Source: a virus. From it: 24,330 nt of DNA. Below, in pieces: positions 1 to 24,019 of the stretch; position 1 is the stretch's first letter, and every line of letters starts with the position of its first letter. Under the pieces are notes generated by a model. It saw only the letters and a list, made by a program, of their open reading frames with translations. It was not told the origin of the DNA and did no database searches. A program made the position numbers and the translations under genes. The stretch covers positions 1-24,330 of IMG/VR virus record IMGVR_UViG_3300027770_000248. One strand, written 5' to 3'.

Positions 1-132
1 GCGATGTGGTTGTTCTAGAACTTTGTTATTAGCACTTGATTTTGATCTAGCAATTTTAGTTTGTTTCTTAATAGCATTCTCGTCTTTGAGTAAACGCTTA
101 CTATGATTAAATTTATCTGTTTCATTGCTCAT
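1..132 (-). CDS. Hypothetical protein, N-terminal part, cut by window edge
   Basis: Reading leftwards from an ATG at 132 gives 44 codons with no stop up to the window edge. The peptide starts MSNETDKFNHSKRLLKDENA and continues with a very basic stretch ending in EQPHR. Its ATG overlaps the TGA of the preceding gene (ATGA), so translation is probably coupled. The Lys/Arg-rich start followed by EPHR resembles a small conserved phage protein that, from memory, continues into a Cys-rich segment. That part is outside the window and cannot be confirmed. Function unknown. Confidence 0.6.
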   Translation of the reverse strand, partial: MSNETDKFNHSKRLLKDENAIKKQTKIARSKSSANNKVLEQPHR

Positions 133-431
133 AGGGGATTGTCCTTGCTTAGTCTGTATATTATTATAACACGATCCAGGGCCTTTTGTAAAGCGGAATT
201 GGTTTTTGCAGCCCGGTGTATTTCGCCCCACATTTTGTTTTCCATCATATGATCGTGTAGTGGTCGGCCGTCACTTGTTCTCGAATCGTAGTCGATCTTA
301 TGACCAGTGATAGGATCCCACTCATAACCGACTAATTTTCGTGTATTGGGGTCAGCACCAAATTCTCTAGCAAACGTCATACCGTTAACTCTTTCATAAA
401 TGTATTTGACTTCTGGCTTAAGACTGCCCAT
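129..431 (-). CDS. Hypothetical protein, 100 aa
   Basis: A 100-residue soluble protein with no signal peptide or membrane segment. It starts MGSLKPEVKYIYERVNGMTF and has a central Gly/Asp/Arg-rich stretch (about residues 25-60) followed by a helical C-terminus. It sits between a 168-aa unknown (3 nt upstream) and the next gene, which it overlaps by 4 nt, so it belongs to the uvsW operon. No Shine-Dalgarno sequence is obvious. I do not recognise a family or function; operon membership and tight packing support that it is real. Confidence 0.6.
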   Translation of the reverse strand: MGSLKPEVKYIYERVNGMTFAREFGADPNTRKLVGYEWDPITGHKIDYDSRTSDGRPLHDHMMENKMWGEIHRAAKTNSALQKALDRVIIIYRLSKDNPL

Positions 432-434
432 GAT

Positions 435-941
435 TTACAACAATTTATCTAACTGTATAATTTCACTTTGACGTGAAATTTCTTTAACAAAATATGCACA
501 TAGGGGCTTAGGTTCTTGATTAAGTGGGACTGCTAATAGTTGGTTATTTTTCATCTTTGGAAAGTACCACTTAACATCGTTATAAAAATTAACAATTTCG
601 ATCTTCTTAAATTCTAATCTAAAGCTACTGAGCGGATTAAAACAAAATGCTTCAAACCCTCTATCGTTTAAGCTGGTTAACGGCAGTATTTCAATATCAC
701 TGGCACTACTGCTGTCCCCCACTGCAATAGACCAATCAATGGGCATAGTAATATCATCGTTGCCTATCCTAAGTACCATTGCCGGACTATTAAACGACTC
801 CAGGAATATTAGTGGTTGGAAGAAGAAATCTGGTTCGGCAGGATTACCGTTATCCAGCACAGCAAATCTCATGCTGTCATCTACCTCTTCGGGTAAATTA
901 TTAAGATCATAAGATCTGTTGTCTAAGGTTAGTATTTGCAT
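435..941 (-). CDS. Hypothetical protein, 168 aa
   Basis: A 168-residue acidic protein starting MQILTLDNRSYDLNNLPEEV. It has no membrane segment and no motif I can tie to catalysis. The middle (about residues 60-125) is rich in hydrophobic/aromatic beta-like patches, including FNPLSSFRLEF and FYNDVKWYFPKMK. It starts 10 nt after the uvsW stop and is probably co-transcribed with it. The stretch before its ATG is AU-rich with no clear ribosome binding site. Position beside uvsW hints at a link to DNA metabolism, but that is inference only. Confidence 0.6.
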   Translation of the reverse strand: MQILTLDNRSYDLNNLPEEVDDSMRFAVLDNGNPAEPDFFFQPLIFLESFNSPAMVLRIGNDDITMPIDWSIAVGDSSSASDIEILPLTSLNDRGFEAFCFNPLSSFRLEFKKIEIVNFYNDVKWYFPKMKNNQLLAVPLNQEPKPLCAYFVKEISRQSEIIQLDKLL

Positions 942-951
942 ATTTTTATTA

Positions 952-2412
952 TTATTTCCAGTCTATCTTCTCAATCGTAAAAGGATATTTCGCATCCTTG
1001 TAAAACTTCTTCCTCTGCGTGAGGTGACGTTTGGCATACTTGCAGGTCGAAGTGACATCCCAGATCTGTACGAAGTCCTTGTCATCCGCACGTCGAATGC
1101 CTCGCCCAATGCTTTGTATAACCCTTGTAAAGCTCTTTCCGGATTCCACCATAACCAAATTAAAAATACGGGGGATATTAATACCCACAGCGGCCACACC
1201 GTAAGTCGCCACAATAATCTTATTATCAACAGTCTTAACTTCATCGTATTCACTTTTCCTATCTTTAGTTTTTACTTCTCCTGAAATAAAGACACTATCT
1301 GGGATTTCATTTACAATAAATTTACCTGTCTCTATTCGATTTACCAGTACTAGAGTGTTGCCACTATTGCTAATACCATTTACTAGTTTTGATATAAAAA
1401 TCATCCTGTCTTCATCAGTGACAAGATATTTGTATTCTTCTGCATATGACTTAAATTCAGGTAAGTCAATAAGTTGTGTTATGTTAACATGACAAGCTGA
1501 TAGTACACCTTGAGCTTGTAATTCATGGGCATGAACCTCGTGTACGCATGGTCCAAGACTTGCAAAAATTTGTTCTGCTTCAAAGTCTTCTTTGGGAATA
1601 GTACCGGTTAATCCCCAACGAATAGGTGCATTATTAAAGTTCTGTGTTAGTAAATTTCTCAGCACAGTGGCCTTGGCCATGTGTACTTCATCAACCATAA
1701 TTGTTGTAACACCATCGAGAAACTCTGCAAGTGTTAGAATATCTTGCTCGTGATTTTTACTTTTTTTATCAAGGATATTGAGACTTTGCCACGTGGCAAT
1801 AGTATGAGTCTTGTACAGATCCTTACGATCGCCGTAGTACACTCCTACATCTAATCCGCAGTTGATAAAGTCTTCTTCTGTTTGTTCCACGAGACTCTTG
1901 TTAGGTACAATAGTAAATGTTCGACCATACGGTTCGCAAATCTTTGCTAGGGTAGCTGTAGTAATTGTCTTACCAAAACCTGTTGCAATCTCTTGTAGAC
2001 ACTGTGGATTTTCAAGAAACTTGTTAACTACTTCAACTTGATCTTCACGTAGTCTAATCGGTTGCCCTGCAAATCTATGCCCAACTGGCCAGCACTGCTC
2101 TCCCCAAAAGTCTGCTTCTACTTTAGGAAACTGTAAATTAATGGCTGCACGATTATCTACGATGTCTGTAATCTCAACACCGCTTTTTTCCAGTACTTCT
2201 AAGATCTTTGGCAGTTGGCTAAGATAACCATTGCCGCCTAATCCAAATAATGTAATAGCACCATCCCATCGACCAAGTTTGTATGCCGGACGATAACGGG
2301 CAGTCGGATCTTCATACTTAAAGGTATTAGCTAACTTCCTACGTATTTCTACAGGGAGACCTTCAACTTTAAGATTTACTTCATCTTGAATGATTAACTT
2401 ACACGACGGCAT
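952..2412 (-). CDS. uvsW: UvsW-type DNA/RNA helicase
   Basis: Superfamily 2 helicase of 486 aa, close to T4 UvsW (about 500 aa). In T4, UvsW unwinds R-loops and branched DNA, shutting down origin-dependent replication and promoting recombination-dependent replication. Visible motifs are Walker A ATGFGKT (about residues 143-149), DEVH motif II (241-244), LTGT motif III (about 268) and motif VI QSIGRGIRR (about 433-441). The ATG at 2412 is preferred over an in-frame TTG at 2415, because AGGAGG lies 5 nt before the ATG but only 2 nt before the TTG. The gene overlaps the stop of the upstream 389-aa gene by 14 bp, indicating coupled translation. Confidence 0.95.
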   Translation of the reverse strand: MPSCKLIIQDEVNLKVEGLPVEIRRKLANTFKYEDPTARYRPAYKLGRWDGAITLFGLGGNGYLSQLPKILEVLEKSGVEITDIVDNRAAINLQFPKVEADFWGEQCWPVGHRFAGQPIRLREDQVEVVNKFLENPQCLQEIATGFGKTITTATLAKICEPYGRTFTIVPNKSLVEQTEEDFINCGLDVGVYYGDRKDLYKTHTIATWQSLNILDKKSKNHEQDILTLAEFLDGVTTIMVDEVHMAKATVLRNLLTQNFNNAPIRWGLTGTIPKEDFEAEQIFASLGPCVHEVHAHELQAQGVLSACHVNITQLIDLPEFKSYAEEYKYLVTDEDRMIFISKLVNGISNSGNTLVLVNRIETGKFIVNEIPDSVFISGEVKTKDRKSEYDEVKTVDNKIIVATYGVAAVGINIPRIFNLVMVESGKSFTRVIQSIGRGIRRADDKDFVQIWDVTSTCKYAKRHLTQRKKFYKDAKYPFTIEKIDWK

Positions 2413-13091: not shown

Positions 13092-13468
13092 TACGGTTTA
13101 ATATTTCGACTTTCTATGGTTTCTTCTGTTTGTATAATCTTGAAACCCAGTGTCGAAGATTTCTCTCGGTATATGTTTAGTACTTCCGTAACAACTTGGC
13201 TTAGCTGAGAATCAGTAAGACCTTTAAGTGTATCTAATAATTGAAATACTGGAATGTTATCTATACGAGCTTGATTTAGCAAAACAATACTTGTACTTTT
13301 TGCAGCTTCTTCCTGGAATCCTCGTTTTAAAAAATATCCCAAAACTGCATCTATTTGATTACTGGGGAATGTAACCTGATGTTGAAAATATCGATCAAAG
13401 AAACTTCTAACTTGATCTCCAGTATCATTGCTGGTAGTTACTCTAGGTAAATTTATTGCAGTACTCAT
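13091..13468 (-). CDS. Conserved hypothetical, probably structural, 125 aa
   Basis: A 125-aa helical protein starting MSTAINLPRVTTSNDTGDQV. The segment QIDAVLGYFLKRGFQEEAAK followed by VLLNQARIDN and LLDTLKGLTDSQLSQVV is a pattern I recall from T4-like phages of the cyanophage type, where the protein has no assigned function. It is wedged between a tube-related gene (ATGA overlap) and gp4 (TAATG overlap), so it is expressed late with virion genes. Likely a small tail or neck component; this is inference. Confidence 0.7.
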   Translation of the reverse strand: MSTAINLPRVTTSNDTGDQVRSFFDRYFQHQVTFPSNQIDAVLGYFLKRGFQEEAAKSTSIVLLNQARIDNIPVFQLLDTLKGLTDSQLSQVVTEVLNIYREKSSTLGFKIIQTEETIESRNIKP

Positions 13469-14556
13469 TGTGGTCCTACGCCAGTATCACGCGGTGTTGC
13501 TATAGTTGGCGCATTGCCGCCGCTACCCATTGGGAATGAAAAATTGGTTAGTCCGCTAATTGGTTGGTTAATTATTGATCTGGCTCCGGTGACGGCAGCA
13601 TTATAACCTGCTGTACTTAACTCATTTCTCACATTGGCCATGTTGAGATTTTTTGCACTATTATACGTGTTAATTGCTTGCGTGCCAGTTCTTAATATGT
13701 CATTAATTGTTATGCTACTAGGGTCTGACAACATGGTAGATATTGCGCCAAATACTGATTCTGCGCCAGCCAATACGCCACCTTGTCCAAATAGATCAGC
13801 TCGCCTGCCGCCTGCTAGTCGTATTGGGCTAGGTAATGTATCGTAATGATCTTGAGCAAATCCTGGAGGATTACCTTGACTAACATTTCCAGTGCCATAT
13901 GCAACTGCTTCATATGCTACAGTCATTGATTGCTCTGCCGGAATACTTGATCCGTAATCTAATGTGTCATGATTCCATGCTGTAATAACTGGATTTACTA
14001 ATGTATAACTAGCATATTGCTTGTTAGCCATTTGATAAATTGTAATCTTGTCAAAAAATGGTATACTGCTATTGTTATCAAAGCCGTAAGGGCTTTTAAT
14101 AAAAGACGAGTTAGTCATTGCCGTTCGGTTATACGCACCTGGGCGGCTAGCTACTGTAGAGTCTGCATAATAATATCTAAAATAATTCTCCCATAGTTGT
14201 CGAGTAACACCTAATCGATCATCATGGAAGGAAATGTTAATTGGAGTGTAGTCAACTTTATTCTGTACAATCTTTTTTCTATTGTATTGATTTAACGTTT
14301 CTGTAGCAATGGTAAATTTAGGTAAGTCGCATTTTTTAACCAACATGTTAATTTCATTTCTATGTCGAAAATCAAAATTTAAACTCTTTAATGCTTGGGT
14401 ATTAATTCCAAAAGAAACATGATAGTTAAACTTACTCTTTGGTGCTAATCTAAAACTATCATCAGAGAACAGTCTTGCCGCATGACGAAAGTCAGCAACA
14501 TTGCCTTTGGGATCCGATACATCAGCTATAAACTGACCAAATGATTTATCTGCCAT
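13465..14556 (-). CDS. Tail tube-related structural protein, 363 aa
   Basis: A 363-aa protein starting MADKSFGQFIADVSDPKGNV. Residues about 45-120 (FNYHVSFGINTQALKSLNF, then MLVKKCDLPKFTIATETLNQ and VDYTPINISFHDD) follow the tube-protein pattern of a strand, a 'V-x2-x-LP' element and an antiparallel hairpin seen in the gp19 family. The C-terminus is Gly/Asn/Ala-rich. It directly follows gp19 in transcription order. Being twice the length of gp19, it may be a tube initiator or baseplate tube cap (gp54/gp48-like), which share the tube fold in T4. It has its own late octamer 5 nt before the ATG and no ribosome binding site. Confidence 0.65.
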   Translation of the reverse strand: MADKSFGQFIADVSDPKGNVADFRHAARLFSDDSFRLAPKSKFNYHVSFGINTQALKSLNFDFRHRNEINMLVKKCDLPKFTIATETLNQYNRKKIVQNKVDYTPINISFHDDRLGVTRQLWENYFRYYYADSTVASRPGAYNRTAMTNSSFIKSPYGFDNNSSIPFFDKITIYQMANKQYASYTLVNPVITAWNHDTLDYGSSIPAEQSMTVAYEAVAYGTGNVSQGNPPGFAQDHYDTLPSPIRLAGGRRADLFGQGGVLAGAESVFGAISTMLSDPSSITINDILRTGTQAINTYNSAKNLNMANVRNELSTAGYNAAVTGARSIINQPISGLTNFSFPMGSGGNAPTIATPRDTGVGPQ

Positions 14557-14644: not shown

Positions 14645-15268
14645 TTAAGCACCAGTGGCTAAGCCACCAGCTCGTGCGCCTAGTCGACCTACATTAATGC
14701 CAACGCCTGTACCTTGAGCTGTTTGCTGTGCATTATCAAATTTAATTGCTAATGTAATAGTACTAGCAGCATTTTCACTGTATGCCATGTTGTTATAGTT
14801 TGCGGATTTTAGGTAACAGCCATATAGTTCCCATGTTTCAAGAACATTAGGAGCAAATCCGCCATTGCCGCCGTCTAGTACTTCGCAAACAGTTACGAAC
14901 TTGTAATCGTTAGCAGATGCAGCAGATGACATTTCGAAGAAGTCGAATTGTTTCTGTAGTTGCTCACCTACTAATTTAGTTACGCCTCCGTTAGCGTCAT
15001 CACGAACGTTTAGAGTTGCATCACTCCATGTATGCTTACCAGCCATGAAGATCTTGCTGTTATATGTATCAAGTGTTATATCATCAAAAGTGATAGTTGG
15101 ACGAGTAAAGTCCACTACCATCTTAGTGATTTCTGTAGTATTTCCGCCAACACCAAAGTTTCGTAAAGTAACGCGAAAGCGATACTTTAACTTTGGCATC
15201 AACATACCCTGGTTCTGTGGAGAACCAGCTAGGGGTACTGAAAATTTGTTTAGTGTTGCGATTGCCAT
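14645..15268 (-). CDS. 19: Tail tube protein gp19
   Basis: A 207-aa protein (T4 gp19 is 163 aa), the monomer that polymerises into the inner tail tube. Seen: the RFRVTLRNFG strand (about 30-39), VVDFTRPTITFDDITLDTYN (51-70), the GKHTWSDATLNVRDD hairpin (77-91), and CEVLDGGNG with ETWELYGCYLKSANYNNM (about 128-161). This is the two-sheet tube-fold order of contractile-tail phages. A Gly/Ala-rich tail (about 185-207) extends past the T4 length. It lies immediately after gp18 and has a perfect late octamer and an AGGAG ribosome binding site. Confidence 0.93.
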   Translation of the reverse strand: MAIATLNKFSVPLAGSPQNQGMLMPKLKYRFRVTLRNFGVGGNTTEITKMVVDFTRPTITFDDITLDTYNSKIFMAGKHTWSDATLNVRDDANGGVTKLVGEQLQKQFDFFEMSSAASANDYKFVTVCEVLDGGNGGFAPNVLETWELYGCYLKSANYNNMAYSENAASTITLAIKFDNAQQTAQGTGVGINVGRLGARAGGLATGA

Positions 15269-15297: not shown

Positions 15298-18200
15298 TTA
15301 ACCTAATGCGGCGATTTCGCCAGTGTTCTTCAAACGTAGTGGAATGTAGATGAATTCAATTGCCTTAACCGGCTCAATTGCAATATCAATCCATAATTCA
15401 TTACGATCAACTCTTGACGGCGTGTTGTTAGATTCATCGCAAACACAGATGTAGTCATACAATGCACGTTGTCCAACTAATTCAAGCATTAATCCATCAA
15501 CTGCGTTCTTGATCTGATCTCTAGTTATCTTGTCATTTGGTTCAAAGACGTAAGGCTTAGCTAATGCACTTAGTTGTCTACGTAAATATACAACTAAACG
15601 AGCTACGTTAATACGATCTAAGCTACTTGCTGCACGAGCACGTGTCTTTTGACCATAATTAACTAATCCAGTACCAGTTAAGAATGTAATAGGATTGATC
15701 TTTGATTCATACAATGTATCACGTTGTCCAGTGTTAAGAGCGACTGATTTAAATTCGCCCTCACCAGTAATATAACCAACTGCTGTTGCATTACTAATGC
15801 CGCCACGACGTACACCGGCTGGTGCAAACCATGGATAAGCAACTTGATCGTTTAGAGCAATTGTACGCAAGATCATATGGCTTGGAGGAATAGCAACGTT
15901 GTTACCAAAGTTGTCACTTGAGAAGCCCCATGGATAGAACATACCCATGTATTCGTCAAAGCTAGTTGCTCCGATGTCATTGTCTTCTAATGCGCCATTT
16001 AAGTTGTTGCCCCATGCTAGTAAGCTAGTTGCATCGGCTGTTAAACGAGCAGGTGTATCACCTACTACAAACGCTGTTAGACCGCGGTCATAGTTTAGAT
16101 TAATTAGTTCACCGATTAGCTCAGGATATCCTGGGCAAGCAATCAAATTAAACACACGGCTTTCTTCATCACGGATGTCTTGGTTGCTGTTAACAACTGC
16201 TTGTAGAGCCTGCACTACTACTGCACGTTGAGCCTTGCGACCAAATGTACCAGAACCATCAGATTGGTTGGCAGACTCAGTAACCCAACGATGTGGATAG
16301 TATGCGCTCATTGATACACCACCTTGGCGATCGTTGTCACCGGCAGTATCAACATAATTTGTTACAAACTTTTTAACGTTGAAACCGCTTCGACGCAAAT
16401 TCCATAGCAACATACCTTTCGGATATAGTGCAGGATCTGGAGCATCAAAGTCTAAGAAATTACTGGATAGCAATTCAACGATAGTCGAGTCTGGGGCTGA
16501 AGTAGCAGAACCACCATTAGCGCCTGCACGAGCATCTGCAAATAGCACACCATCTTCTGTACTTTGATCAGTCTTATCAACTAATACCCATTGTTGCAAG
16601 TCTAAGTTGTATTTGTAGATTGTTGGGAAGTTTTCAGTATCGCTAGTGTCAATCCATAGATCGCCAGCAACTAATGGATCTTCATTGCTTTGTTCTTCAG
16701 GTTTAGTAGCACTTACTAATGGACCTGCTGGATCTGTACCAGTAACGCTTGAATATCCGACCCATGTAGTACCGTTGTGAACCATAATGTCAATTTCGTC
16801 AATTACTGAACTATACCATAATTGTCCGTTTGCTGCCAATGCCATTGGTGCATCAGCTCCCGCTGTGTAACTCAAAGGTTCCCATAAGCTAGCAACAAGA
16901 CTATATGTAACACCACTTGGTGCGGTATATAAGTTAGTTGTAGTTGCAGTAAATCCGGCAAGTGTAATTGGAGTTAAAGTAGTATTTTCTAGCGTGATTT
17001 CGCCGCCTTTAGAATGAGTAATTACGATTCGATTACTTGCGTCAACTGATGCTTGTACATTTATAAGCCCAGCAGCATTAATTGCTCCTGCGAATGTGTC
17101 AGCTGCCGTGGTTGCCGCTGCTAAAGTAACAGTAACAGTAACTTCAGCAGATAATGTAGCAGATCCAACTAAACTTTCTCGAATTTTAAATGCGTGTGAC
17201 GCAGCAGTAAATGTACTTGCAGTAATTGCAGAAGATGTAATTGTAGTTGCACCACTTGCTTTACGACGATATACTGTAAAATCTGCTTCTTTTTGCGTAG
17301 CTTCAGTTGCATTAGACTTGGTAAACAATGTTCCAACTGCTAGATTTAAGCCACCACCTGTGCTGTCTAAGGCATTTAATGCTGCGGCTGCTGTTTCATA
17401 AATAGGAGCTTCTGCTGCTTCCCATAGTGCAGTGCCTGCATTAAAACGCTTAACTCTCCAACGTGCGCCATTGTTTGGCTCGGTTGTTTTAACCCACACA
17501 GAACCTGTTGGTCTTGATGTAGCTGCGGCTGACTTCCACTGAGGAACTTCTGTATGCTTGGCAATAGCTAATGCTGGTGCACGGTATGTTCCAGCAGTTA
17601 GTCCCAATACGCTTAATACCGCAGGAGTGCCTGAACTGGCCACTGCAACAACTACATCTGCACCTGTTGAGTAAATGTTAACTTTGCCACTTACCACAGC
17701 CGCAGTAACACCAGTAATACCTGCAATTGCTGATGCAACGTCTGCGGCAGAGGTGCCACTAATAGTGCAAGTGTTGCCGTTAATGCTAAATGTAGTAGAA
17801 GTAATAATTGTACCTGGTGTGTCTCCAACTACTGTTGGGATGCTAGTCTGCCAGGCATCACTGCCAACTTTTTCCCATACTCCTATAGATGTTTTAACAA
17901 ACAGTTCAACTGGTACTCCAGTTGCATCGATCGCATAATCACCAATTGCTCCAACTGATGCTTTTGGCTCGCCACCGGTAATTTTATTAATATCAGTAAT
18001 AACAATTGGCGTTTTATTAGTAAACATTTGGCCGCCTGCTGTTGCTGGGGCTGCGTTCCATTCAAAAATACCAAATGCTGTATTTTGTGTATCTAACCAA
18101 TATGTACCGTTTTCTGGGTTTGCTGACGGTGCGTCTGCGCTGGCATTCAGTTGATCAAGATCAACATTTGCTCTAACCACAAATGCACGATTACTAACAC

Positions 18201-18504
18201 CCAATAAGCTGTAAGCAGCTTGTAGGCCATATTCGTTTTGTTCGCCAGCATGGATAGGGTTGTTGTTAGAGTCAGTCTTGAAAACTGGGTCTCCAAATGT
18301 ATCCGCTAAATCCTTCTGACTTGTTAACAAATAAACAGTTCCGTCGTTGGCCATTAATGTACCCGGGGCGATGCCGGTGCCTCCGCCGTTTTGTTTGTTC
18401 TCAGCGGTTGCTACCACAATCAAAGGGACTGTGCCAGGTTCTGCTGGTGTATAAAATGATTCGTCAATTACGCTGACTTGTACGCCTGGTGAACTTAATG
18501 CCAT
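15298..18504 (-). CDS. 18: Tail sheath protein gp18 with large repeat-bearing insertion
   Basis: Contractile sheath protein of 1068 aa (T4 gp18 is 659). The N-terminus (MALSSPGVQVSVIDESFYTP, 1-20) and the C-terminal core (about 660-1068, including ACPGYPELIGELINLNYDRG, YPWFAPAG and the terminal IAIEPVKAIEFIYIPLRL) are typical sheath. Residues about 130-650 form an insertion with at least four, perhaps five, copies of a G-D/S-L/V-W-x-x-T ... Y/W-x-x-N/D-x3-W motif (near 133, 187, 334, 560 and 614). These are separated by Thr/Ala-rich segments around 238-290 and 437-505 that look like flagellin/hook-type beta modules. The insertion probably projects from the tail surface. The ribosome binding site TAGGAGAT lies 6 nt before the ATG. 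Confidence 0.93.
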   Translation of the reverse strand: MALSSPGVQVSVIDESFYTPAEPGTVPLIVVATAENKQNGGGTGIAPGTLMANDGTVYLLTSQKDLADTFGDPVFKTDSNNNPIHAGEQNEYGLQAAYSLLGVSNRAFVVRANVDLDQLNASADAPSANPENGTYWLDTQNTAFGIFEWNAAPATAGGQMFTNKTPIVITDINKITGGEPKASVGAIGDYAIDATGVPVELFVKTSIGVWEKVGSDAWQTSIPTVVGDTPGTIITSTTFSINGNTCTISGTSAADVASAIAGITGVTAAVVSGKVNIYSTGADVVVAVASSGTPAVLSVLGLTAGTYRAPALAIAKHTEVPQWKSAAATSRPTGSVWVKTTEPNNGARWRVKRFNAGTALWEAAEAPIYETAAAALNALDSTGGGLNLAVGTLFTKSNATEATQKEADFTVYRRKASGATTITSSAITASTFTAASHAFKIRESLVGSATLSAEVTVTVTLAAATTAADTFAGAINAAGLINVQASVDASNRIVITHSKGGEITLENTTLTPITLAGFTATTTNLYTAPSGVTYSLVASLWEPLSYTAGADAPMALAANGQLWYSSVIDEIDIMVHNGTTWVGYSSVTGTDPAGPLVSATKPEEQSNEDPLVAGDLWIDTSDTENFPTIYKYNLDLQQWVLVDKTDQSTEDGVLFADARAGANGGSATSAPDSTIVELLSSNFLDFDAPDPALYPKGMLLWNLRRSGFNVKKFVTNYVDTAGDNDRQGGVSMSAYYPHRWVTESANQSDGSGTFGRKAQRAVVVQALQAVVNSNQDIRDEESRVFNLIACPGYPELIGELINLNYDRGLTAFVVGDTPARLTADATSLLAWGNNLNGALEDNDIGATSFDEYMGMFYPWGFSSDNFGNNVAIPPSHMILRTIALNDQVAYPWFAPAGVRRGGISNATAVGYITGEGEFKSVALNTGQRDTLYESKINPITFLTGTGLVNYGQKTRARAASSLDRINVARLVVYLRRQLSALAKPYVFEPNDKITRDQIKNAVDGLMLELVGQRALYDYICVCDESNNTPSRVDRNELWIDIAIEPVKAIEFIYIPLRLKNTGEIAALG

Positions 18505-20295: not shown

Positions 20296-21048
20296 TTAAC
20301 CAATGACAAATGTATAGCCAGTGCCGCCACTAACTAATGTTTCTAATTCTTTATCTAAGGCAGCTAGTTCTTCTTTGCCTGCCGACTTTAAATCATTGCC
20401 GTTTAATGCTCCGCCGCATGCAATTGATGCAAACTTAGAGCGTGCTTCACCTAACATCATTTTACAGTTGGCTAGCGTATAATCACGTATCCATTGTTTA
20501 GCATATATATCTTCTATGATAAGATAATCTGGCCTAAAATTCTGAGTACGCATTCCAATTACTTCACCTTCACTAAACGGACGCTGTAGTATTCTAATAG
20601 TACGACTTGACGGAATCCACTGGAACTCGATATATGCCCCAAACATTTTACCTATCATTTCTTGATAGCTTGCAAACATAAAATACGTAGCAATGCCGCC
20701 CATCATTGTACTGTTTAAAAGGTACGTGTTAGTATACGCAAGATTGAAAGGCTCAAAGTTTGTTCCAGTTCCGCCGCCAGTTCTTGATCCCAATGTTCTT
20801 CTAAAAACAGACTGCACGTTAATAATTTCTTTAGGCAAAATGTAATCATTTTTGTCCTTTTCAAGGGTTAAAAAACTGTAGCTTTCTTCCACAGCATTTG
20901 GGCTGCGTTGACGGAATCTAGTTAGAGCACGATCCAATGCTGTTTCATAATGTATAGGGTCAAGCTCAACGTCAATCATACCGTCGCCCAACATGGCGCG
21001 ACAATAATCAAAAACTTGTTGTTTAACTTGTTGTGGATTGTCTGACAT
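20296..21048 (-). CDS. 13: Probable neck protein (gp13-like), 250 aa
   Basis: A 250-aa protein. An N-terminal helical part, DPIHYETALDRALTRFRQRS (about 31-50), is followed by LEKDKNDYILPKEIINVQSV with a beta-rich centre. It continues with IEFQWIPSSRTIRILQRPFS (about 140-159) and IRDYTLANCKMMLGEARSKF (about 188-207). This arrangement is typical of gp13-type neck/adaptor proteins of environmental T4-like phages. It would join the filled head to the tail with gp14. It is divergent from the gp14-like gene, with back-to-back late promoters between. A GGGAGA ribosome binding site precedes the ATG. Confidence 0.55.
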   Translation of the reverse strand: MSDNPQQVKQQVFDYCRAMLGDGMIDVELDPIHYETALDRALTRFRQRSPNAVEESYSFLTLEKDKNDYILPKEIINVQSVFRRTLGSRTGGGTGTNFEPFNLAYTNTYLLNSTMMGGIATYFMFASYQEMIGKMFGAYIEFQWIPSSRTIRILQRPFSEGEVIGMRTQNFRPDYLIIEDIYAKQWIRDYTLANCKMMLGEARSKFASIACGGALNGNDLKSAGKEELAALDKELETLVSGGTGYTFVIG

Positions 21049-21063
21049 TTGTATCTCCCATGT

Positions 21064-21071
21064 TATTTATC
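21064..21071 (-). promoter_or_regulatory. Late promoter octamer of the gp13-like unit
   Basis: GATAAATA on the minus strand (7 of 8 matches), 15 nt before the ATG at 21048, directly abutting the opposite-facing octamer. Confidence 0.65.
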
Positions 21072-21079
21072 GCTAAATA
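21072..21079 (+). promoter_or_regulatory. Late promoter-like octamer of the gp14-like unit
   Basis: GCTAAATA on the plus strand (6 of 8 matches), 7 nt before the ATG at 21087. With the minus-strand octamer it forms an imperfect palindrome, TATTTA-tcgc-TAAATA. No ribosome binding site lies between it and the ATG. Confidence 0.5.
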
Positions 21080-21086
21080 TTGTACT

Positions 21087-22388
21087 ATGCCACGTTTATC
21101 CCTCTATTCGCCCGAGAAAGGCAACGATTACAAATTTCACGATCGCAGCATATCTGAGATGTTTCAGGTGGGCGGCACCGACTTATATCTACACAAATAC
21201 CTAGGACCCAAGAATCCTCTAACAGGCGAAAGTACTGCAGATATACCTATGTACGATGCTGTAAAAGAAACCAACATACAAGATTTGCTATTCCTTGAAA
21301 ATCGTGATAGAAAATATGACAGTTCAGTATACACAGTACGTGGTGTTTATAATGTATCTGACATTGACTTTAACCTAAGTCAGTTTGGTCTGTTTATCGA
21401 TAACGATACAGTTTTTATGACTGTACACATTAATGATTTTATCAAGCTAGTTGGCCGTAAACCATTAGCTGGCGATGTAGTGGAGTTACCGCACTTGCGA
21501 GATGAGTTTGCACTTAATGATGCTGACCAAGCACTGCCAAGATTCTTTGTTATCAGTGAAGTTGGTCGTGCTGCTGAAGGATTTAGCCGTACATGGTATC
21601 CACATTTATACAGATTAAAATTAGGTAAGATTGCTGATCAACAACAATATTCAGACATTCTTAAAACTCCCACAGATAAAGATGCAAACTTTACAGGAGA
21701 TTACAGCCCAACTGTAACATATGCCGTTGGAGAAATTATTCGCTATCAGGGCACCCTGTATCAAGTTACCGCAGCTACTACAGGCATAGCACCGCCTAAT
21801 GCTGGTTATTTTAGCGTATACTCCGGAGCCACGATACAGAGTATCTTAAGTACACAGGCAAAAAGTCTTGAAATTAATGATGCTATCCTTGCCCAAGCCG
21901 AAGCCAATGCTCCTAAGAGTGGATATGAAACCCAACAGTTTTACTCATTAACTGCTGACGAGTTTGGTAATCCAGCACTTATTACTGTAGATGATGCTAC
22001 AACGCCACCAGATGCTTCTAGTATGCACATGGATGCAAGTAGAATTGGTGCTAGACCAAATAGAACAGGATATAGTGGATACTTACTAGGGGATGGTATA
22101 CCACTTAACGGTGTTGATTTTGGGCATGGGATAGGTTTTCCAGCAGGCGCCATTGAAGGTGATTTCTTTCTACGAACAGATTTCTTGCCCAACAGATTGT
22201 TTAGATACGATAGTAAACGTTGGGTCAAGCGTGAAGATGATATTCGTATGTCAATGACTAATACTGATACTCGACAAACTTTTAGAACTGGATTTATTAA
22301 TAATACAGAAACTGATAATATTGCCGGTGAGACTGTTGCACAACGTCAAGCATTAAGCAAGGCACTTAAACCTAAGGCAGACTTATAA
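21087..22388 (+). CDS. 14: Probable neck protein (gp14-like), extended, 433 aa
   Basis: A 433-aa protein from the ATG at 21087. An in-frame upstream start at 21033 lies inside the opposite gene and before the promoter, so it is rejected. Residues 1-190 carry an element near 22-40 (ISEMFQVGGTDLYLHKYLG) and GLFIDNDTVFMTVHINDFIK (101-120), then ELPHLRD and SEVGRAAEGFSRTWYPHLYR. This follows the order of T4 gp14 family proteins but is longer than T4 gp14 (256 aa). A CBM5/12-like stretch with YAVGEIIRYQGTLYQV (about 212-227) and a GDFFLRTD...LFRYDSKRWVK module (about 358-381) are added. These could decorate the neck. Its stop overlaps the next ATG (TAATG). Confidence 0.55.
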   Translation: MPRLSLYSPEKGNDYKFHDRSISEMFQVGGTDLYLHKYLGPKNPLTGESTADIPMYDAVKETNIQDLLFLENRDRKYDSSVYTVRGVYNVSDIDFNLSQFGLFIDNDTVFMTVHINDFIKLVGRKPLAGDVVELPHLRDEFALNDADQALPRFFVISEVGRAAEGFSRTWYPHLYRLKLGKIADQQQYSDILKTPTDKDANFTGDYSPTVTYAVGEIIRYQGTLYQVTAATTGIAPPNAGYFSVYSGATIQSILSTQAKSLEINDAILAQAEANAPKSGYETQQFYSLTADEFGNPALITVDDATTPPDASSMHMDASRIGARPNRTGYSGYLLGDGIPLNGVDFGHGIGFPAGAIEGDFFLRTDFLPNRLFRYDSKRWVKREDDIRMSMTNTDTRQTFRTGFINNTETDNIAGETVAQRQALSKALKPKADL

Positions 22389-22540: not shown

Positions 22541-24019
22541 GTGCCGGTTATGTACGGAGATCAAGATCGCCAAGCAGCAACTGTTGTGAATCAAAATTCA
22601 GAAAATACACTTCAAAGTGCTCCTCGAATTGCAATATATATTACTGATCTTGATTTGGATAATACTCGATTAGGTGATGCTACGTTGGTTAGTAAAATGC
22701 ATTTTCGTGAACGAGACATCGATGACGATGGAAACTATACTAGTACTCAAGGACAAAATTATACGGTTGAACGGTTGATGCCAACTCCATTTAAGTTGTC
22801 AGTTAAAGCAGATATATGGTCAACTAGTACAGAACAAAAATTACAAATACTAGAACAGATTTTAGTATTGTTTAATCCAAGTTTAGAAATACAAACAACT
22901 GACAACTTTGTAGACTGGACATCATTAACTGTTGTAGATCTCGGTGATGTAACATTTACTAGTCGTACGGTTCCAATGGGCACTGCTACACAAATTGATA
23001 TTGCTACTCTTACACTAACTACTCCTATATGGATTACACCGCCTGCCAAGGTTAAGAAATTAGGTGTTGTTACTAATATTATTTCAAGCGCATTTGACAG
23101 TTCGTCTATGAGCGACTCATATGTTGACGGGTTAGGGGTGTATGTAGATGCGGGGCAATCATATCCCGGAAATTCTATGGCAAGTGCAAAAGCAACACTT
23201 GGCAATTTTGATATTGTTGTATCCGAAGGTAAAATTAAACTAGTAAGTAGTACGCAACCCGGAGTTTGGTTAAACTGGCAAGTAATATTACAACAAAATC
23301 CGGGCTCGTATACTGCTGGGTTAGCTAAAATTTATTTGTTACAGCCAGACGGTAGCGAAGTTGTGGGCTATCTAAGTTTAAATCCGTTAGATGAATCTGA
23401 AATGGTTGTTAATTGGGATACCGATACTCATCCAACAAACAATATGATTGCAGGGCCCGCTAGATTGTCAGAATCGTGGGGAAGTTTTGACGCTGTGATT
23501 GATCCTACAACTACTGGGCCAAGTAATTTAGTACTTGGTACTAGATACTTAATTATTGACAATATTGGTGGCGGAGTTCGTGACACGTTTGTTACTGGAT
23601 TAAAAATACAAAGGATTAGTACAGCAGTTGAGTTTGACAAAGTAAACGATTGTCACGTGTTTGTTAATGGTACTGAAGTTGGACAAGGAACTCCGATAGA
23701 ACGAGATGGCAATTATGTTATTATTCTTGCAGCCTTTGCACCTGTAGGAAGTACAGTTACTTATGTGTTAAACTTGAATGAAGACGGTCCCGATGCTTGG
23801 AAAAACACTGACAGTACTGACTTTATTGCAGAAGCCAATGACATCATTGAATGGGATGGCAGCAAATGGTGGGTAATATTCTCAGCGGATGAAAACTCAG
23901 AAAACTTGATTTATCAGACAAATATCTATACATTAGTACAATACAAGTGGAATGGAGTTAACTGGGTGAAGAGTTTTGACGGTGATTATAGACGTGGCGA
24001 TTGGAGGTTAGAATTATAA
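22541..24019 (+). CDS. 15: Tail completion / sheath stabiliser protein (gp15-type)
   Basis: The uninterrupted part encodes 492 aa from a GTG at 22541; the family N-terminus lies upstream (22388-22540) behind a stop. VPVMYGD (1-7), PRIAIYITDLDLD (28-40), YTVERLMPTPFKLSVKADIW (74-93), EQILVLFNPSLEIQTTDNF (105-123) and TLTLTTPIWITPPAKVKK (156-173) follow the T4 gp15 pattern. T4 gp15 is a 272-aa hexameric ring capping tail tube and sheath. The extra C-terminal region (about 185-492) has beta-type repeats and an Asp/Trp module (about 430-480) like that in the sheath insertion. Truncation at GTG would remove about 50 conserved residues, so a longer native protein is likely. Confidence 0.85.
   Translation: MPVMYGDQDRQAATVVNQNSENTLQSAPRIAIYITDLDLDNTRLGDATLVSKMHFRERDIDDDGNYTSTQGQNYTVERLMPTPFKLSVKADIWSTSTEQKLQILEQILVLFNPSLEIQTTDNFVDWTSLTVVDLGDVTFTSRTVPMGTATQIDIATLTLTTPIWITPPAKVKKLGVVTNIISSAFDSSSMSDSYVDGLGVYVDAGQSYPGNSMASAKATLGNFDIVVSEGKIKLVSSTQPGVWLNWQVILQQNPGSYTAGLAKIYLLQPDGSEVVGYLSLNPLDESEMVVNWDTDTHPTNNMIAGPARLSESWGSFDAVIDPTTTGPSNLVLGTRYLIIDNIGGGVRDTFVTGLKIQRISTAVEFDKVNDCHVFVNGTEVGQGTPIERDGNYVIILAAFAPVGSTVTYVLNLNEDGPDAWKNTDSTDFIAEANDIIEWDGSKWWVIFSADENSENLIYQTNIYTLVQYKWNGVNWVKSFDGDYRRGDWRLEL

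Follow-up and report, generated by a model that had tools for sequence, protein, structure and literature searches.

The window, a 24,330-base virus record (IMGVR_UViG_3300027770_000248) analysed at its full length, carries genes with family matches to a helicase, a UvsX-like protein, a terminase, two tail tube proteins, a tail sheath and a head-tail adaptor, together with a nucleotide kinase, a sheath stabiliser, a UvsY-like protein and a single-strand binding protein. Genomes of ~290-490 kb in the nearest isolates make it probable that the window is part of a jumbo-phage genome. The sheath gene (Table 1) adjoins the tail tube family matches at 14645-15268 (-) and 13465-14556 (-), which lie side by side and represent two different proteins. 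Residues 1-1062 of the sheath align with positions 2-913 of the 915-position profile phrog_10581 (RaK2/Atu_ph07-like), the C-terminal sheath domain PF17482 is found at residues 960-1056 (56.1 bits, cut-off 26.9), and the sequence match to T4 gp18 spans residues 825-1056; the N-terminal core part has a weak sequence similarity to T4 (best 1.5 bits). The C-terminal domain, the core fold and the neighbouring genes all identify the protein as a contractile phage tail sheath of the T4 gp18/Phage_sheath superfamily.

Table 1. The tail sheath gene of the window and the parts of its product, with the basis on which each was assigned
Feature	Residues	Position	Strand	Basis
Tail sheath gene	1068 aa	15298..18504	-	phrog_10581 E 6.4e-236; PF17482 E 4e-15; T4-type sheath Z 35.5
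Sheath core, N-terminal part	1-123	18136..18504	-	high conservation; model aligned from residue 21
W-module M1 (GTYWLDT)	124-178	17971..18135	-	hhalign M5 95%, M6 62%, M3 61%; W136 invariant
Module M2, degenerate (GDYAID)	179-231	17812..17970	-	position and eye; W210 invariant
Flagellin-like domain F1	232-315	17560..17811	-	VIA match to 2zbi; hhalign F2 87%
W-module M3 (GSVWVKT)	316-376	17377..17559	-	hhalign M6 86%, M1 61%
Module M4, weak	377-414	17263..17376	-	hhalign M6 43%
Flagellin/FliD-like domain F2	415-546	16867..17262	-	VIA matches to FlaD, FliD, XM1, PhiTE
W-module M5 (GQLWYSS)	547-597	16714..16866	-	hhalign M1 95%, M6 66%; W563 invariant
W-module M6 (GDLWIDT)	598-650	16555..16713	-	hhalign M3 86%, M5 66%; W617 invariant
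Sheath core, C-terminal part, with stop codon	651-1068	15298..16554	-	PF17482; T4 gp18 match 825-1056

The N- and C-terminal core parts are separated by a large insertion of ~520 residues (~124-650). An earlier note on this DNA had flagged positions 16570-18110, residues ~132-645 of the sheath ORF, as holding about 500 extra residues of repeated modules and had put T4 gp18 at about 400 residues shorter; the insertion, with its module repeats and its separate and confident predicted fold, bears this out, and T4 gp18 (659 residues) is shorter by 409. The W-motif G-x-[LVIYFM]-W-x-x-[TS] occurs four times within residues 130-650, at 133, 334, 560 and 614, and nowhere else in the sheath, against a mean of 0.066 and a maximum of 2 in 20,000 shuffles, whereas a search of the sheath sequence for the second motif of that note, Y-x-x-N-x3-W, in its literal form gave no occurrence; each of the four W-motifs is followed by a later tryptophan within 8-30 residues, the spacing permitted by the pattern. 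The suggestion of Thr/Ala-rich, flagellin- or hook-like modules is supported, with 14.4% threonine and 14.8% alanine in the insert versus 5.9 and 10.8% outside it, and with structural matches to flagellin and FliD.

The insert was divided into six M modules and two F domains (Table 1), with boundaries drawn by eye before testing that shift by a few residues between the hhalign and identity comparisons. Alignment of the modules with one another by hhalign supports a kinship among M1, M3, M5 and M6, in every pair except M3-M5, and of F1 with F2; M3-M5 and every pair involving M2 scored 20% or less. Four module pairs gave real scores of 23.6-37.5 against maxima of 10.5-14.5 in 20 column-shuffled controls each. 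The shuffles, the hhalign pairs and the column-shuffled controls rule out a chance origin of the W-motif. In the 122-sequence alignment described below, each of M1, M2, M5 and M6 has one tryptophan that never varies, and profiles of M1, M3, M5, M6, F1 and F2 (hmmsearch, E<=1) found no match outside the marker-motif sheath ORFs in the window and the loci of its relatives.

AlphaFold2 was run on an alignment of 122 of 145 sequences (<93% mutual identity, with the loci of named isolates left out) and predicted the whole sheath with a mean pLDDT of 92.1 and a pTM of 0.80. The insert alone (residues 122-664), modelled from 120 of those sequences after removal of L120 and L236, whose inserts are the longest, reached a pLDDT of 94.8 and a pTM of 0.83. 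By VIA, the whole model superimposed on the T4-type sheath 9f4a with an rmsd of 2.4 over 341 aligned residues (model 21..1049; Z in Table 1), on T4 gp18 (3j2m) with Z 30.2, and on the Afp2 chain 6rao_C with Z 29.4 (306 of 351 residues aligned, model 22..1050). VIA gives the first and last aligned residue only, and the 341 core-aligned residues would be located outside the insert. In a search of solved sequences, the whole-sheath profile gave 19 matches at E<=0.001, the best stretches of which cover profile positions 816-1026, the C-terminal core; N-terminal matches were weak in the three alignments examined.

That the insert might belong to the fold of the contractile core was named in the earlier note as a reading that would overturn its own, and the results go against it. 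The insert is confidently predicted to fold by itself, its best matches are of the flagellin type, and a T4-type core chain is absent both from the 42 VIA matches listed for it and from the best 50 of its 318 Foldseek matches, although absence from either list does not exclude a family. A profile of the 120 inserts compared with solved proteins gave three matches at E<=1, of which the best had 0.072, two were to designed proteins and none was credible. The models thus support the insert as an accessory segment that is folded apart from the contractile core.

Flagellin-type proteins top the VIA list of the insert, yet with Z of 8-9 they lie just above the level that the tool calls common. Residues ~219-310 (F1) matched the cell-surface flagellin 2zbi (Z 8.4, rmsd 2.5, 84 aligned residues, 27% identity), and residues ~417-544 (F2) matched Vibrio cholerae FlaD best (Z 8.9, 99 aligned residues, rmsd 3.0), followed by Helicobacter pylori FliD (Z 8.6), a chain of the XM1 baseplate complex (Z 8.2) and a PhiTE tail chain (Z 6.8), the last two aligned at chain residues 97-216 and 84-179, respectively. 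Foldseek returned nothing at E<=0.001 for the insert, the best hit among the top 50 of 318 being FliD at 3.4e-3. The Pfam family Flagellin_IN stayed below its cut-off of 22.7 bits in F2 of the window (13.4 bits, E 0.088) and passed it in two of eight sheaths scanned (L003, 28.4; L019, 29.6), with L002 below at 19.6. No carbohydrate-binding family was among the Pfam matches of the whole sheath (E<=1) or of residues 196-327, 328-408 and 419-548 (E<=10).

To place the insert in its lineage, the best 80 loci from each of three scans, two of them alignment-based, were taken as relatives, the true number of which is larger. They comprised 238 loci including the window (L001), and a filter for start, stop and motif retained 189 full-length sheaths, of which 153 were distinct (154 with the window); the 49 loci left out include L001 itself, fragments, and the phage CBB (L009), whose NNTT motif was missed by the filter. 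Recovered sheaths are 714-1211 residues long. Conservation across the 154 sheaths drops from residue ~121 and returns between ~600 and ~690, and in all 153 relatives the insert is less like the window than is the rest of the sheath (medians 48 versus 73%). At least one M match was present in 152 of the 154 full-length sheaths and at least one F match in 126, with neither F1 nor F2 matched in the other 28; since the profiles derive from this sheath family, module matches in close relatives are to some extent built in. The order N M1 M2 F1 M3 M4 F2 M5 M6 C2 was found in 101 of the 154 (1046-1162 residues), and in the remainder some of F1, F2, M2 and M4 were undetected or the matches were differently ordered. 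In XacN1 and CM1 (714-715 residues) only the core ends were found, without a module match; their insert was considered as a distant F relative, but with scores as low as 11% (F2) and 2% (F1) no such relationship is claimed. The earlier note had also envisaged that all close relatives might carry the segment as an essential core domain: nearly all do have a module match, but as an accessory segment. Judged by these profiles, the insert is general in the RaK2/Atu_ph07-like sheath lineage, with F domains at varying positions, and is not special to the phage of the window. The longest sheaths, L120:286-3921 and L236:488-4009 (1211 and 1173 residues), have a stretch of ~350-420 residues, reaching from M1 or M2 to M3, that matches neither the F1 nor the F2 profile and possibly represents other inserted domains.

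Large multi-domain sheaths have been described before. Those of Atu_ph07 (1086 residues, five or more domains), SCTP-2 and RaK2 were modelled by Evseev et al. 2022 (PMC9230969), in whose sheath models extra domains are placed away from the tube, and a 2024 report describes a Sinorhizobium jumbo phage whose sheath has 1092 residues (PMC11242549). In the scheme of Evseev et al. the sheath of the window would belong to Type 3, the multi-domain sheaths with at least three domains and the additional ones beyond the common core; it has a core, a W-module region and two flagellin-like domains, the domains being judged from profiles and matches. T4 gp18 shares the sheath core with it, and its conserved part is likewise broken by long insertions (PMC9230969). 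Atu_ph07 is closely comparable, with 43.6% identity over 88% of the query and with core, W-module and flagellin-like profile matches, but in Atu_ph07, as in Phosso, the F-type matches fall at the M1-M2 and M2-M3 junctions, whereas the window has its F domains at M2-M3 and M4-M5. The sheaths of RaK2 (888 residues), PBECO4 (887), CBB (884) and PA5oct (879) also consist of a core with a central insert, and M-module matches are present in RaK2, PBECO4 and PA5oct (CBB stood outside the module count). These RaK2-like sheaths and that of PA5oct are ~180-190 residues shorter than that of the window, and the three counted differ from it in having no F1 or F2 profile match at the threshold used.

Smaller sheaths offer parallels to the F domains. 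XM1 gp6 (495 residues) has a domain like FliD D3 inserted in its N-terminal sheath domain (PMC10457771), and the 497-residue length of the XM1 chain that matched F2 fits gp6; XM1 differs from the window in having a single flagellar-cap-like domain, and the accessible part of that report mentions no W-module platform. The type-2 sheaths of phiTE, Sf14 and Adele carry a lateral beta-sandwich of the FliD/flagellin type, a domain also described in FliD, flagellin, podovirus nozzles and capsid proteins, but theirs is just one additional domain (PMC12846349).

We consider it likely that the sheath of the window is built as a separately folded accessory layer, made of W-modules and two flagellin-like arms, on a standard sheath core. 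Residues ~1-123 and 651-1068 would form the usual contractile core, the small W-modules M1, M3, M5 and M6 (with M2 and M4 degenerate) would make a platform close to it, and two arms, M2-F1 and M4-F2, would bear beta domains like those of flagellin D2 and FliD. The F domains would be farther from the core than the W-modules, with six copies of the insert per ring, and the insert is expected to play no part in driving contraction. The number of sheath copies per virion is plausibly high, by analogy with phAPEC6, which we take to be a related jumbo coliphage. In phAPEC6 the sheath has 25 hexameric rings, or 150 copies (PMC7247149). The insert would probably face outwards, as do the extra domains of published sheaths and the outer sheath component of phiKp24 (PMC9700779).

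Platform and arms differ in their rate of change. Compared with L014-L017, the window is identical at 98% in N, 90-97% in C1/C2 and 76-94% in M1, M3, M5 and M6, with M2 at 55-62%, M4 at 63-79%, F1 at 36-50% and F2 at 48-60%. Identity comparisons show that the putative arms diverge faster than the W-module platform against most relatives compared. The gradient is not universal, because L012, the closest full-length relative among the matches listed, differs more in M5 (88%) and M6 (83%) than in F1 (93%) and F2 (98%). That M5/M6 (16555-16866, -) change most in this comparison, the reverse of the usual gradient, could reflect a local exchange. Over 243 pairs, which are related and so non-independent, the median dN/dS rose from 0.13 in the core to 0.27 in M and 0.46 in F; F exceeded the core in 242 of them. 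These ratios point to purifying selection in all parts of the sheath, and no positive selection was found, F rising above 1 in none of the 243 pairs. Since it never does so, relaxed constraint on an exposed surface accounts for the gradient equally well as adaptation. Synonymous distances to L014-L017 were 1.3-1.5 in F and 0.57-0.73 in the core, an inflation through which exchange or misalignment may distort the dN/dS ratios of these pairs.

The selection data also bear on whether the insert does anything at all. It could be tolerated bulk, domains gained by recombination that have little function and are permitted because they lie outside the contractile core, in keeping with the wide range of sheath lengths, with the 28 sheaths that lack an F1 or F2 match and with the different location of F domains in some others. 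We regard this as improbable given the purifying selection seen in every part, the F domains included, and the full module order that is unchanged in 101 sheaths.

Adhesion, stability and tail-appendage roles have all been proposed for extra sheath domains (PMC9230969). As a tentative first choice, which we hold to be somewhat short of an even chance, the insert may form a surface coat in which the variable arms touch the cell surface or the environment through weak accessory contacts. We rank such weak surface attachment slightly above a stabilisation of the tail, both having been proposed earlier (PMC9230969). For the latter, the insert would mainly be a brace, its modules touching neighbouring subunits and reinforcing the large tail of a jumbo phage, a possibility for which the chances are perhaps one in three. 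A stability role has been published for extra sheath domains, with domain II of phage 812 as an example (PMC9230969), and both the four invariant tryptophans of the W-modules and the layout retained in about two-thirds of the sheaths would suit it. However, the extra domains of T4 are supposed to be nonessential for sheath formation (PMC9230969), and the outer component of phiKp24 is described as uninvolved in the subunit interactions of assembly, with interactions perhaps arising once the sheath has contracted (PMC9700779). The rapid divergence of the arms from L014-L017 and the F domains at differing junctions also speak against a brace.

Appendages offer a further role, in which the insert would dock other virion parts, for instance the hair-like whiskers on the tails of CBB and phAPEC6 (PMC5259590, PMC7247149). 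Tail appendages are among the published hypotheses for extra sheath domains (PMC9230969), and the CBB sheath aligns with the sheath family of the window. Yet the fibres of phAPEC6 are confined to three annular positions, even though sheath subunits recur over the length of the tail (PMC7247149), the whiskers of Atu_ph07, whose sheath is closer in size, appear mainly capsid-associated (PMC6102473), and no feature of the window favours whiskers. We judge docking the least probable of the roles considered.

To return to the surface coat, a more elaborate form of it would be a display lattice, in which a conserved W-module platform carries exchangeable flagellin-like arms that relocate and diversify from one phage to another, with probably 100-200 swappable copies per virion giving weak attachment to cells, flagella or glycans. 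We offer this combination as speculation that is rather unlikely to hold in full.

Multi-domain jumbo-phage sheaths and the adhesion idea are already published (PMC9230969), and the sheath of the window joins them. The data presented here add a more conserved W-module platform, two faster-diverging arms, and a different placing of the flagellin-like domains among the junctions of Atu_ph07 and Phosso. A partial search of the literature found no prior description of the module arrangement, which may still be published. The sheaths of large phages can be roughly three times as long as the smallest phage sheath modelled (341 residues), and the reason has been debated in print without an answer (PMC9230969). 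The module map provides defined deletion points in a cultured relative, for example Atu_ph07, that would separate the adhesion, stability and appendage-docking ideas.

Two further genes of the window were noted. The product of 21033-22388 (+) is a virion structural protein (phrog_11591) with a sub-threshold match to carbohydrate-binding module 5/12 at residues 224-251 (24.2 bits, cut-off 26.2); its C-terminus looks like a W-module by eye, but it scored only 39% against M6 and was rejected as one. The gene at 22541-24019 (+) encodes a gp15-like tail sheath stabiliser, in which the Pfam match covers residues 2-188 of 492 and is followed by an extension of ~300 residues.
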